Source of the DNA: Mucilaginibacter xinganensis
Lineage (GTDB): Bacteria > Bacteroidota > Bacteroidia > Sphingobacteriales > Sphingobacteriaceae
Length of the DNA stretch: 64,000 nt
Assembly: GCF_002257585.1 (NCBI RefSeq)
Contig: NZ_CP022743.1
Span: forward strand, 1,364,001-1,428,000
Direction of reading: 5' to 3'
How positions within the stretch are numbered: position 1 is the stretch's first letter; every line of letters starts with the position of its first letter. This document shows, piece after piece, positions 38,676 to 41,760 of this stretch. Under the pieces are notes generated by a model that was given only the letters and a program-made list of their open reading frames with translations, was not told the DNA's origin and searched no databases. Position numbers and translations under genes: made by a program.

Positions 38676-39581
38676 ATGAACAAGACTTTACGAACACTTA
38701 CATTTCTGTTCTTGCTGTTGTTATCAGCAAAACTCTCATCGGCACAAAATAAAATAGTTGTCTTCCAGTCGGATTTTGGGTTGAAAGATGGGGCTGTTTC
38801 AGCAATGAAAGGTGTAGCCATGGGCGTATCGACCGATTTAAAGCTTTACGACCTTACACATGAAATTCCGGCTTACAATATTTGGGAGGCCTCTTATCGC
38901 CTGGAGCAAACTGTGAGGTATTGGCCCGCCGGCACCGTGTTTGTTTCGGTAGTTGACCCGGGTGTGGGTACCACGCGCAAATCGGTGGTGCTTAAAACAA
39001 AATCGGGCCAATACATTGTGACACCCAATAACGGCACCTTAACGCTGGTGGCGCAATCATTAGGTATTGATGAGATCAGGGAAATTAACGAGGCGGTGAA
39101 CCGCCGTAAGGATTCGCAAAAATCTTACACCTTTCATGGCAGGGACGTGTATGCCTATACGGCCGCACGCCTGGCTGCCGGGGCCATTACCTTTGAGCAG
39201 GTAGGGCCGCTGCTGCCCAAGCAGGTGGTAAGCATTCCCTACCAGCAAGCAGTGATGGACGGCAAGATACTAAAGGGCAACATCCCCGTGCTTGATGTGC
39301 AATACGGCAACGTGTGGACAAACATACCCGATACTTTATTTAAGCAGCTTGGCCCCAAATATGGAGATGTTGTTCACGTTAGCATTTTTCATAAAAATAA
39401 ACAGGTTTACAAAGGCGATATGCCCTACACCCAAACTTTTGGCGCTGTTGCGGAAGGGAAGCCACTGGCCTATTTGAACAGCCTTTTACAGGTTTCATTT
39501 GCCCTGAATATGGGTGACTTTGCCAAAACGTACGACGTGGCTAGTGGTGGCGAATGGAGCGTGGAAGTAAGTGTTAATTAG
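38676..39581 (+). CDS. Exported DUF62 (SAM hydroxide adenosyltransferase-like) protein
   Basis: A 301-residue protein with an N-terminal signal peptide (LLLLSAKLSSAQ) before a DUF62 domain. QSDFGLKDGAVSAMKGVAMG contains the active-site Asp, VDPGVGT is the next conserved loop and TPNNGTLT and TFHGRDVYAYTAARLA follow. DUF62 proteins normally split S-adenosylmethionine to adenosine and methionine in the cytoplasm. A secreted form is unusual, because SAM is cytoplasmic. Periplasmic substrate unknown. Confidence 0.82.
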   Translation: MNKTLRTLTFLFLLLLSAKLSSAQNKIVVFQSDFGLKDGAVSAMKGVAMGVSTDLKLYDLTHEIPAYNIWEASYRLEQTVRYWPAGTVFVSVVDPGVGTTRKSVVLKTKSGQYIVTPNNGTLTLVAQSLGIDEIREINEAVNRRKDSQKSYTFHGRDVYAYTAARLAAGAITFEQVGPLLPKQVVSIPYQQAVMDGKILKGNIPVLDVQYGNVWTNIPDTLFKQLGPKYGDVVHVSIFHKNKQVYKGDMPYTQTFGAVAEGKPLAYLNSLLQVSFALNMGDFAKTYDVASGGEWSVEVSVN

Positions 39582-39603: not shown

Positions 39604-40780
39604 CGATTGCATGGCGTACAGTTAACTCACCCCGATATCGCTTCGCTCGCCGACCCTCTCTTCGCCTGCGGCGGAAAGAGGTGAGGGGGAAAGATAAATG
39701 GGATTTCTTGGGCCCTCTTTCCCGCTTGCGGAAGATAGGGCAGGTTTGGCGAAGCGAAGACCGGGTGAGTAAACTCTGCGAGCGATATCACCGGTGGTTG
39801 CATGGCGTATAATTAACTCACCCGACTACGCTACGCTGGTCGACCTCTCTTCGCCTGCGGCGGAAAGAGGTGAGGGAAACAAATAAAAGATTAAATGAAT
39901 TTCTTGAGCCCTCTTTACCGCTTGCGGAAGAGAGGGCAGGTCGGGCGCAGCGAAGACGGGGTGAGTAAACTCTGCTAGCGATATTACCGGCGGCGTTGCA
40001 TGACGTATAATTAACTCACCCGACTACGCTACGCTGGTCGACCTTCTTCGCCTGCGGCGGAAAGAGGTTGGGGAAAGGTTTTATTTTTATCTTTAGTCAT
40101 GCCTTCTATAATTGAATTATGTCGCGAATTACGGCAACGTGAAACAGCCGCTGAAAAGGCCTTATGGTATCATCTCAGGAATAGAAAATTATTTGAGCAT
40201 AAATTCTTGAGGCAATATCCAATTTGTGTTGAGTCTGGGTTTGGCAAGAGACTATATTATATTCCCGATTTTTATTGTCATAAAGGGAAATTGGTCATTG
40301 AGGCTGACGGTCCTATTCATGATTTTAAAAAAGAATATGATAAAAACAGGGAGGATGTATTAATTTCTTTAGGCTTAAAAATACTCCGGTTTGATAATTC
40401 AGGAATACTTAATAATATGCCAGCAGTATTAGAAAAGATCAGGGAAAGTTTATCATAAAAACATTTTCCACGCCCTCTTTACCGCTTGCGGAAGAGAGGG
40501 CAGGTCGGGCGCAGCGAAGACGGGGTGAGTAAACTCTGCAAGCGATATTACCGGTGGTTGCATGGCGTACAGTTAACTCACCCGACTACGCTTCGCTGGT
40601 CGACCTTTCTTCGCCTGCGGCGGAAAGAGGTGAGGGAAAAAAGATTAAATGAATTTCTTGAGCCCTCTTTCCCGCTTGCGGAAGAGAGGGCAGGTCGGGC
40701 GAAGCAAAGACCGGGTGAGTAAACTCTGCTAGCGATATTGCATGGCTATTCTGCACTTGTCACTAACTCAGCCCCGACCA
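39604..40780. repeat. Tandem array of inverted repeats carrying a DUF559 gene
   Basis: About 195-base units alternate two arms that are inverted copies of one consensus. A arms: 39621-39688, 39812-39875, 40010-40072, 40572-40636 (contain TTAACTCACCCGACTACG and GCCTGCGGCGGAAAGAGG). B arms: 39712-39774, 39909-39970, 40473-40534, 40663-40724 (contain CCGCTTGCGGAAGAGAGGG). B-to-A linkers share GCGATATTACCGG and TTGCATGGCGTA; A-to-B linkers share AAATGAATTTCTTGAG. The nuclease gene occupies one A-to-B linker. The last linker ends in a truncated A arm near 40780. Confidence 0.8.
40099..40458 (+). CDS. DUF559 domain (Vsr-like) endonuclease
   Basis: A 119-residue protein of the DUF559/PD-(D/E)XK superfamily, related to the very-short-patch-repair nuclease fold. 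Features: ELRQRETAAEKALWYHLRNR at the N-terminus, YYIPDFYCHKGKLVIEADG with the catalytic D and E-x-D, and DVLISLGLKILRFDN. It is AT-rich and sits exactly between an A arm and a B arm of the repeat array. Similar genes in this phylum are often found alone or in repeats. Nuclease activity is inferred. Confidence 0.88.
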   Translation: MPSIIELCRELRQRETAAEKALWYHLRNRKLFEHKFLRQYPICVESGFGKRLYYIPDFYCHKGKLVIEADGPIHDFKKEYDKNREDVLISLGLKILRFDNSGILNNMPAVLEKIRESLS

Positions 40781-40935: not shown

Positions 40936-41760
40936 ATGAACAACGATATAGTACACCCTAATAATCCCCGCAATGGTAAGGCCCTGGCCGGGATAGTTTT
41001 GCTGGCGATAGGCGCCATACTGCTGGTGAAGCAGTTTGATTTCTTTTTTGTGCCGGGATGGTTGTTCAGCTGGCCAATGTGGCTTGTTGGTTGGGGGCTT
41101 TTTATAGGAGCCAAAACCAATTTTCATAAACCTTCCTCATTTTTGCTGATCCTGTTAGGTATTGTGTTTTTAATAAATGAAAACTTTGACCGCGCCGACA
41201 GGATAGTATGGCCAATAGCGATTATAGGCCTTGGTTTGTGGTTGATATTAAGGCGTCACAGTCATTTTGACAAAACCCAGTGGAATAAAGATAACAAATG
41301 GGGCAGCGCCGCTTATACGCCGCCGGTAACTGAAGAGCCGGTAGTTGATTACACTATTACCCAGGATTATACCAATATGAAAGAGCCGGTAAATCCTTCG
41401 GCATCGTACAAACCAACCGGTGATGATTACCTTGATACTGTTTCGGTTTTTGGCTCGGTAAAGAAAACCGTGCTTTCCAAACACTTTAAGGGCGGCGAAA
41501 TTGTAAATATTTTTGGTGGTGCCGAGCTGGATTTTACCCAGGCCGACATCCAGGGGAAAGTGATTATTGATATTACCCAGATCTTCGGCGGGGTGAAAAT
41601 GATTGTTCCGCCGCACTGGCAGGTAGTGCCCGACATCGCCGCAGTATTTGCGGGTATTGAAGATAAAAGAATGAAAAGCACCGCTGCTGTGGGAAGTGAA
41701 AAGATCCTGGTTTTAAAAGGAGTTTCAATTTTTGCAGGAGTGGACGTACGGAGTTTCTAA
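40936..41760 (+). CDS. LiaF-like envelope-stress membrane protein
   Basis: A 274-residue protein. Residues 1-105 form four transmembrane helices (LFSWPMWLVGWGLFIGAKTN, IVWPIAIIGLGLWLIL). Residues about 160-270 form a LiaF-type beta-helical cell-wall-active-antibiotic response domain (DYLDTVSVFGSVKKTVLSK, GGEIVNIFGGAELDFTQADI, KILVLKGVSIFAGVDV). LiaF restrains its sensor kinase in Firmicutes. Here it stands upstream of a LytS/LytTR pair. The control role is inferred. Confidence 0.85.
   Translation: MNNDIVHPNNPRNGKALAGIVLLAIGAILLVKQFDFFFVPGWLFSWPMWLVGWGLFIGAKTNFHKPSSFLLILLGIVFLINENFDRADRIVWPIAIIGLGLWLILRRHSHFDKTQWNKDNKWGSAAYTPPVTEEPVVDYTITQDYTNMKEPVNPSASYKPTGDDYLDTVSVFGSVKKTVLSKHFKGGEIVNIFGGAELDFTQADIQGKVIIDITQIFGGVKMIVPPHWQVVPDIAAVFAGIEDKRMKSTAAVGSEKILVLKGVSIFAGVDVRSF

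Follow-up and report, generated by a model that had tools for sequence, protein, structure and literature searches.

A DUF559 nuclease gene and its cognate inverted hairpin repeats: a probable small mobile unit in Mucilaginibacter

The 64-kb stretch of Mucilaginibacter xinganensis DNA analysed here (the window) contains eight full-length copies of a repeat arm, all inside a single array, as identified with a covariance model, R1, at E ≤ 0.1 (individual E-values from 6.6e-18 to 1.9e-24). R1 was built from 52 arm sequences, two of them from the window, and five extra partial matches correspond to the opposite strand of the same eight arms. The alternately inverted arms form four A-B units of ~195 nt each, the third of which carries an intact DUF559 gene. 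Both the alternating array and the placement of a 119-residue gene inside one A-to-B linker had been proposed in a first-pass annotation, and both are borne out, the arm coordinates given there being correct to within a few bases. The features are, in order:

38676..39581, + strand: left neighbour gene, 301 aa, outside the element (ORF list; served the orthologous-site test), presumably an S-adenosyl-L-methionine hydrolase/fluorinase-like protein
39620..39684, + strand: arm A of unit 1, consisting of tag ACTCACCC, hairpin 1 and hairpin 2 (R1, 64.9 bits)
39711..39775, - strand: arm B of unit 1, an inverted copy (R1, 58.3 bits)
39776..39810, no strand: B-to-A spacer, 35 nt, conserved between units (spacer comparison and direct-repeat families)
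39811..39873, + strand: arm A of unit 2 (R1, 70.1 bits)
39907..39971, - strand: arm B of unit 2 (R1, 76.6 bits)
39972..40008, no strand: B-to-A spacer, 37 nt
40009..40070, + strand: arm A of unit 3, the gene-bearing unit (R1, 57.4 bits)
40099..40458, + strand: DUF559 nuclease gene, 119 aa (PF04480, 103.7 bits, E 6.5e-30)
40471..40535, - strand: arm B of unit 3 (R1, 76.4 bits)
40536..40570, no strand: B-to-A spacer, 35 nt
40571..40633, + strand: arm A of unit 4 (R1, 65.9 bits)
40661..40725, - strand: arm B of unit 4 (R1, 74.7 bits)
40936..41760, + strand: right neighbour gene, 274 aa, outside the element (ORF list; orthologous-site test), which we take to encode a LiaF-like membrane protein

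The A-to-B linkers of units 1 to 4 are 26, 33, 400 (with the gene) and 27 nt long. The B-to-A spacers, at 35-37 nt, are conserved, and it is therefore likely that the array grew by tandem copying of a unit together with its spacer. The gene is AT-rich against GC-rich arms, as first described (34% GC compared with 56-63% in the arms and 43% in the window). A 17-nt arm motif has five matches in the window at up to two mismatches, where shuffled sequence gives an expectation of 0.11, and four mismatch-free matches lie in the array. DUF559 is the sole ORF of at least 80 aa in the gene-bearing unit, and among ORFs of this size the unit contains no DDE, HUH, Ser or Tyr transposase. A defence system, an Rfam family and a phage origin were each considered as explanations and dropped: there was no PADLOC match, the Rfam search of the window returned one chance match far below the gathering score, and matches were present in 3 of 50,697 phage records.

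Each arm is ~64 nt long and consists of the tag followed by hairpin 1 (GNC...GNC) and hairpin 2 (CCCTCT...AGAGGG). Alignment of 52 arms with RNAalifold predicts 14 base pairs, 9 of which show double-sided changes; one covarying pair occurs as A-T in 22 arms, T-A in 15, G-C in 9 and C-G in 3. The second stem contains a conserved mismatch. Among 149 distinct arms from 39 loci, collected by matching a fixed outer stem, CTCT/AGAG, the position immediately inside it reads C.A in 117, C.T in 13, G.A in 4 and A.A and A.G in 1 each, with pairing restored in 13 (C-G 7, T-A 3, T-G 3), while the following pair is T-A in 138 of the 149. On the complementary strand the C.A mismatch reads T.G, the type of mismatch on which Vsr acts. 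The arm mismatch may represent a substrate of this class, a proposal with which the 13 C.T arms are out of line.

Structurally, the DUF559 protein is predicted with confidence (pLDDT 91.7), and a structure search with the predicted model found its nearest solved fold in 3hrl, an endonuclease-like protein of Neisseria gonorrhoeae (Z 13.0), with further matches to the catalytic domain of the homing endonuclease I-Bth0305I (PDB 3r3p, Z 8.7) and to Vsr (1cw0, Z 7.8, where a Z under 8 may mean only a common arrangement). The sequence profile of the protein also reaches I-Bth0305I (E 0.0015). Residues D57, E68, D70, H74, D81 and R84 are invariant in 27 aligned homologues, and the conserved acidic and histidine residues presumably constitute the EDxHD motif. 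On sequence and model together, the window nuclease is of the Vsr/EDxHD type. It is under purifying selection, with a median pN/pS of 0.25 over 153 pairs of 18 homologues and a median dN/dS of 0.10 over 19 unsaturated homologue pairs. At one related locus (L061, 3001-3353) the reading frame of the arm-flanked DUF559 gene is disrupted, as a decaying element would show. The family has precedents in the literature. In the available part of PMC1189080, YcjD was placed in the PD-(D/E)XK superfamily with a profile match to Vsr, and that of PMC12907096 presents Caulobacter VsrA, which has a DUF559 domain, as a candidate mismatch nuclease, this DUF559-domain protein being required for a DNA damage response in a methylase mutant, with T:G repair modelled. 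Neither source, in the parts available, links a DUF559 protein to such repeats, and a literature search, mostly outside the subscription journals, found no paper tying DUF559 to them.

A search with tblastn of the species-genome collection, reaching close relatives only, yielded 21 loci of the window clade, all from Mucilaginibacter or Bacteroidetes bacterium. Arms lie on both sides of the DUF559 gene, within ~100 nt, in 20 of these, so the converse expectation, that DUF559 genes of this clade adjoin the arms, is largely upheld. The matches are partly obtained by construction, since many of these arms were used to build R1, and the flank sequences themselves show the arms directly, apart from the model. 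The sole exception, L060, is 55% identical and bears another repeat. In 13 of the 20 loci the gene has an A arm as its nearest upstream and a B arm as its nearest downstream neighbour; other arm orders, always within an arm cluster, occur at L044, L048, L049, L052, L055, L058 and L059.

The association was quantified by a flank score, defined as the best alignment of the upstream 250 nt to the inverted downstream 250 nt, with a threshold of 25. Removal of duplicates reduced 136 loci to 117 distinct ones, 103 of them with usable flanks, and these include 84 single-domain DUF559 genes (44 from Mucilaginibacter, 25 from other Bacteroidota and 15 from plasmid-collection records) and 19 fused ones. 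The threshold is reached at 46 of the 84 single-domain genes (Mucilaginibacter 31, other Bacteroidota 8, plasmid-collection 7), the remaining 38 lying under it, compared with 4 of 251 control ORFs from the same loci (Fisher p 1.5e-28), where a control is any frame of at least 100 aa and some are therefore not real genes. None of the 19 fused DUF559 genes reaches it. In the window the DUF559 gene scores 47 and the remaining 60 of 61 ORFs at most 24. The 40 genus loci were drawn from those listed matches that have a short open frame, chiefly the highest-ranking ones, and the gene start was estimated in two ways, so single scores vary (L124 gives 31 or 11).

Several Mucilaginibacter DUF559 groups bear repeats that differ from the ACTCACCC-tagged arms of the window clade. 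A group 35-38% identical to the window protein carries CCCCTCTTGAGAGGGG with GGGGTGTG (L099, L114, L120, L124, L127 and L129). In a group at 50-56% identity, L060 has TACCCCTTATG...GATAAGGGGTA and L130 part thereof, with no inverted repeat at L116 of the same group or at L100. L091 and L092 share a third kind of palindrome and L126 has a fourth; the flank score of L130 is at shuffle level, and those of L092 and L094 are under the shuffle maximum. Further families of the same design occur in other Bacteroidota; at L194, for example, ACTCATCC is combined with CCCTTCTCTT hairpins. Repeat similarity tracks nuclease identity across 57 loci with a flank score of at least 20 (Mantel rho 0.57, 0 of 500 permutations), rising abruptly near 55% protein identity, and does so within Mucilaginibacter alone (36 loci, rho 0.55, 0 of 500 permutations). 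Shared descent of whole loci contributes to this correlation, as expected if gene and arms travel together. At four loci from four genomes (L268-L270 and L273), a doublet of GGGGTGTG...CACACCCC plus CCCCTCTCAAGAGGGG, a repeat type that accompanies the 35-38% identical group, adjoins the clade I doublet site described below, and the part of the query containing this doublet matches at many places in the six genomes searched.

Comparison of insertion sites between relatives, which the first-pass annotation had suggested, shows that the units come, go and invert at orthologous positions. For one site, a 3.3-kb region that includes a DUF559 unit (569-576 nt) was set against ten genomes, one of them its source. 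The unit (~570 nt) occupies the same site in G117, G017, G071 and G013 and is absent from G116 and G091, where 27 and 37 nt, respectively, separate flanks that are 84-90% identical to the query; G027, G081, G103 and G049 gave partial matches to the region. The flanks of empty G091 are 95-99% identical to those of filled G013, and the flanks of empty G116 91-93% identical to those of filled G071. Filled-site junctions read roughly GAGTTNACTC-ACCCC...GGGGT-GAGTNAACTC, and the empty sites keep one such copy in changed form. A GAGTNNACTC-like copy is present once at empty sites and twice at filled ones, where it is part of the inverted ends; the outer bases vary at other loci, and no clean target duplication is seen at the sites compared. 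Since the four filled species have the unit at a single site and differ from one another roughly as vertical descent would predict, the two empty sites may be plain deletions, and ancestral presence with two losses fits the data, as does repeated gain at one site.

At a second site G017 and G116 have a gene-less doublet that G091 and G013 lack; in G117 and G071 it is inverted together with ~20 nt of flank, and there are further changes beside it. Gene-bearing and gene-less units share the same kind of ends, namely terminal inverted repeats. The window site was approached through the left-neighbour orthologue of nine other genomes. It is empty in G018, G005 and G003, where the neighbour genes are consecutive with no arm tag between them, and holds one gene-less A-B doublet in G023. 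G012 (L152) has a different insert without the tag, its right neighbour lying further on; judged by eye from an HVHLI motif, this insert presumably encodes a Y1-transposase-like protein. For the other four genomes (L153-L156), the 1500 nt beyond the left-neighbour orthologue did not include the right neighbour.

The M. xinganensis genome itself has two DUF559 matches, the window gene and a domain within a 1330-aa frame (L001/L040, C1:4277941-4278255); such long frames are common in the genus, and of the 19 tested none has flanking inverted repeats. Several other places in this genome have arm copies but no DUF559 gene, and R1 matches 40 of its 44 scored candidates; as only 44 candidates were scored in every genome, these counts saturate and are not copy numbers. 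At one such place (L036, C1:3261500-3266500, ~2056-2979) eight tandem ~120-nt units related to the arms lie with no DUF559 gene adjoining, given the two matches genome-wide. Across 120 Mucilaginibacter genomes, a clade I gene (at least 55% identity to the window protein) is present in 43, all of which have at least 16 arms; G022, G047 and G089 among them match only as partial copies, and the gene of G085 has an internal stop. The 77 genomes lacking a clade I gene divide into 53 with at least 8 arms and 24 with 0-4 (Fisher p 6.6e-6 for gene versus arms), and of the 16 genomes that gave no DUF559 match, 9 still have at least 8 arms. With all 43 gene-bearing genomes arm-rich and 53 of 77 gene-less ones too, the gene implies the arms and not the reverse. 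The expectation that arms would occur only in genomes with DUF559 thus fails, and we rejected the arms as a signature exclusive to gene-bearing genomes. Arms without the gene fit non-autonomous copies that have outlived their enzyme.

In REP/REPIN systems a short tag and an imperfect hairpin form inverted pairs and tandem clusters mobilised by RAYT transposases of the Y1 (HUH) type; one or few enzyme genes are flanked by their own repeat family, with many orphan copies and cognate pairing, and the GTAG tag is a defining feature of the repeats. The arms resemble these in tag and imperfect hairpin, REPIN-like inverted pairs, tandem clusters, orphan copies and a cognate enzyme. They differ in that the enzyme is a Vsr/EDxHD-type nuclease and not an HUH transposase, the tag is ACTCACCC instead of GTAG, each arm has two hairpins, and the flanked gene is PF04480, with arms within 500 nt at 0 of 20 fetched Y1_Tnp loci (one locus shortened by a contig end). 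Because the enzyme differs, REP/RAYT-style cognate pairing applies by analogy only. The nuclease-repeat pairing first proposed on that model therefore stands as regards association, cognate type and polymorphic units, and falls as regards co-occurrence of arms with the gene alone. Since, in addition, no Y1 gene is attached, the system would work like REP/RAYT, by a putative mechanism, yet is not a member. A MITE with its autonomous transposon offers another parallel, in terminal inverted repeats common to gene-bearing and gene-less copies, although that arrangement would call for one of the transposases absent from the window unit. The likeness to Vsr lies in a similar fold (a middling match) and in the DUF559 domain of VsrA, for which T:G action is proposed; E. 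coli Vsr is associated with a cytosine methylase and VsrA has a functional connection to one, and in the available part of PMC12907096 neither is tied to repeats. Finally, I-Bth0305I, an EDxHD homing endonuclease, shares the catalytic domain family and the invariant D, E, D, H and D; the DUF559 unit differs in having inverted hairpin arms of its own at its borders, and no intron or intein was seen in the DUF559 flanks read. Either the arm or the empty site could be the cleavage site of the nuclease.

These observations give good support to a unit that consists of the gene and its cognate arms and has derivatives lacking the gene. We consider it probable that the DUF559 gene and its flanking arms constitute an autonomous small mobile element, of which the gene-less A-B doublets are non-autonomous copies. 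In the proposed action, an arm that becomes single-stranded or extruded would be recognised by the Vsr/EDxHD-type nuclease through its tag and the hairpin with the conserved mismatch, and the nuclease would nick or cut near the tag. Repair or replication could then copy, delete or invert the unit between its tags, and neighbouring doublets would multiply in tandem with their spacer, each nuclease clade acting with its own repeat family. Action on the arms, the position of the cut and the route of copying are all putative.

Alternatively, the arms could spread by themselves, through slippage, recombination or cruciform-induced breaks, with DUF559 a selfish, homing-like gene that inserts into such repeats and is copied along. 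The persistence of arms in genomes without the gene, the resemblance of the enzyme to a homing endonuclease catalytic domain and the replication and repair routes proposed for E. coli repeat instability in the available part of PMC4666352 would all agree with such a passenger. It is nonetheless unlikely, given that repeat sequence tracks nuclease identity across genera, that other ORFs are seldom so flanked (4 of 251) and that units end in the same way whether or not they carry the gene. A housekeeping role, with DUF559 a Vsr-like mismatch nuclease and the arms incidental or by-products, would draw on the DNA damage response and T:G repair model of the Caulobacter protein and on the fold match to Vsr; the gene is patchy, however (49 of 120 genomes at E 1e-20), lies among arms at 20 of 21 loci and goes with a particular repeat, which makes this reading quite improbable.

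The arms might also be RNA-level signals, bidirectional terminators or processing sites that insulate a small gene. They are indeed covarying hairpins, for which alignment alone gives no distinction between RNA-level and DNA-level readings; yet gene-less doublets are numerous, and are polymorphic and inverted at the one site compared, and the available part of PMC4666352, citing earlier work, reports the E. coli relative to be without promoter or terminator activity, so that we hold such a role to be highly improbable. Equally, the arms could be REPs moved by a Y1 transposase (RAYT) encoded elsewhere. Y1_Tnp matches occur in 109 of the 120 genomes, in 91 of 96 arm-rich as against 18 of 24 arm-poor ones (p 0.008), but the arms lack the GTAG tag, the Y1_Tnp loci fetched lack arms, and five arm-rich genomes (G023, G084, G085, G110 and G118) have no Y1_Tnp match, leaving this explanation scarcely credible.

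DUF559 genes with flanking repeats extend beyond the Bacteroidota. Thirty-two plasmid-collection records contain DUF559 by tblastn, and 17 single-domain loci were analysed, 16 from this collection and one from an E. coli genome, with some gene ends set by eye; their taxa are Cyanobacteria, Deinococcus and Alpha-, Beta- and Gammaproteobacteria, besides the E. coli genome. Perfect GC-rich hairpins occur on both sides of the gene at 8 of the 17, on one side at 7 and on neither at 2, compared with 0.01-0.39 sides per locus in shuffles. E. coli ycjD has no perfect hairpin in this strict scan, its repeats having imperfect stems. By inverted-repeat score (16 loci), Pseudanabaena, Sinorhizobium and Deinococcus are well above shuffles, L133 (16 against a shuffle score of 15) and E. 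coli ycjD (L134, 19 against a shuffle maximum of 17) are marginal, and L132, L136, L141, L143 and L146 are not above shuffles. At L135, L138, L140 and L143 DUF559 genes are placed among functionally related genes, as insertions would be; those of Deinococcus lie inside catabolic clusters (paaD/paaZ, hpa genes), and that of Sphingomonas between transhydrogenase genes. On a Pseudanabaena plasmid (L145, ~1501-1818), repeats scoring 56 surround a DUF559 domain within an annotated long frame.

In E. coli, where the sapF-ycjD-fabI stretch is found at 80% coverage or more in 3363 of 5426 genomes, imperfect hairpin repeats lie downstream of ycjD, and this region has matches in 5348 of the 5426 genomes, at a median of 13 places. 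The repeat is the BoxC/PIT/TMECO motif, also described as an intrastrand triplex motif, its string occurring in PMC4666352. This 2015 source, in the part available, counts 23 BoxC/PIT/triplex copies in MG1655, five inverted pairs among them, and describes the motif in over 260 other prokaryotes, with raised variability between strains and no transposase or integrase remnants around its sites. According to this source, E. coli BoxC dates back to the 1990s and has neither an enzyme attached to it nor a mobility gene nearby, and the word ycjD is missing from the main text (PMC4666352). Like the arms, the motif combines a tag, C(T)CACCC, with a CCCTCTC...GAGGG hairpin, is intergenic, sometimes paired in inversion and variable between strains according to the same partial source, and has a copy adjoining a DUF559 gene; unlike them, it has no hairpin 1 between tag and stem.

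This adjacency and shared design suggest a wider link between DUF559 and BoxC. It is quite possible, if short of probable, that DUF559 proteins are the missing enzymes of widespread tag-plus-hairpin repeats, including BoxC/PIT/triplex (E. coli, Neisseria, cyanobacteria), which they would move or remodel as RAYTs do REPs, only by a Vsr-like nick at a structured, mismatch-bearing hairpin. If so, a cognate nuclease would supply a common class of intergenic repeats with an agent, a history and a means of testing, E. coli K-12 itself included; DUF559, so far a family without an assigned function, would gain a role; and a REP-like system based on an unrelated enzyme fold would join those known. Copy numbers give no more than a hint: the 37 E. 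coli rows with the full stretch after ycjD have a median of 13 other places, against 3 in the 21 rows without it (p 2e-8), where ycjD presence is read from the downstream stretch, lineage is ignored, and the partial H280 and plasmid H302 are excluded.

Two E. coli genomes lacking ycjD at this position (L207 and L210) have, upstream of fabI, genes for a TetR regulator and RND efflux in its place; a clean empty site for ycjD was accordingly dropped, both genomes opened being replacements by this RND efflux/TetR cassette. Of the other repeat sites inspected, gcvP-ygfF differs by gene content, and the tldD-aaeR region can be aligned from end to end in the 29 listed chromosome rows. The yhjE-yhjG site varies, giving no exact junction, with an inverted pair in S21 and partly in TUM1223, another repeat in the MG1655 record and little in E04.
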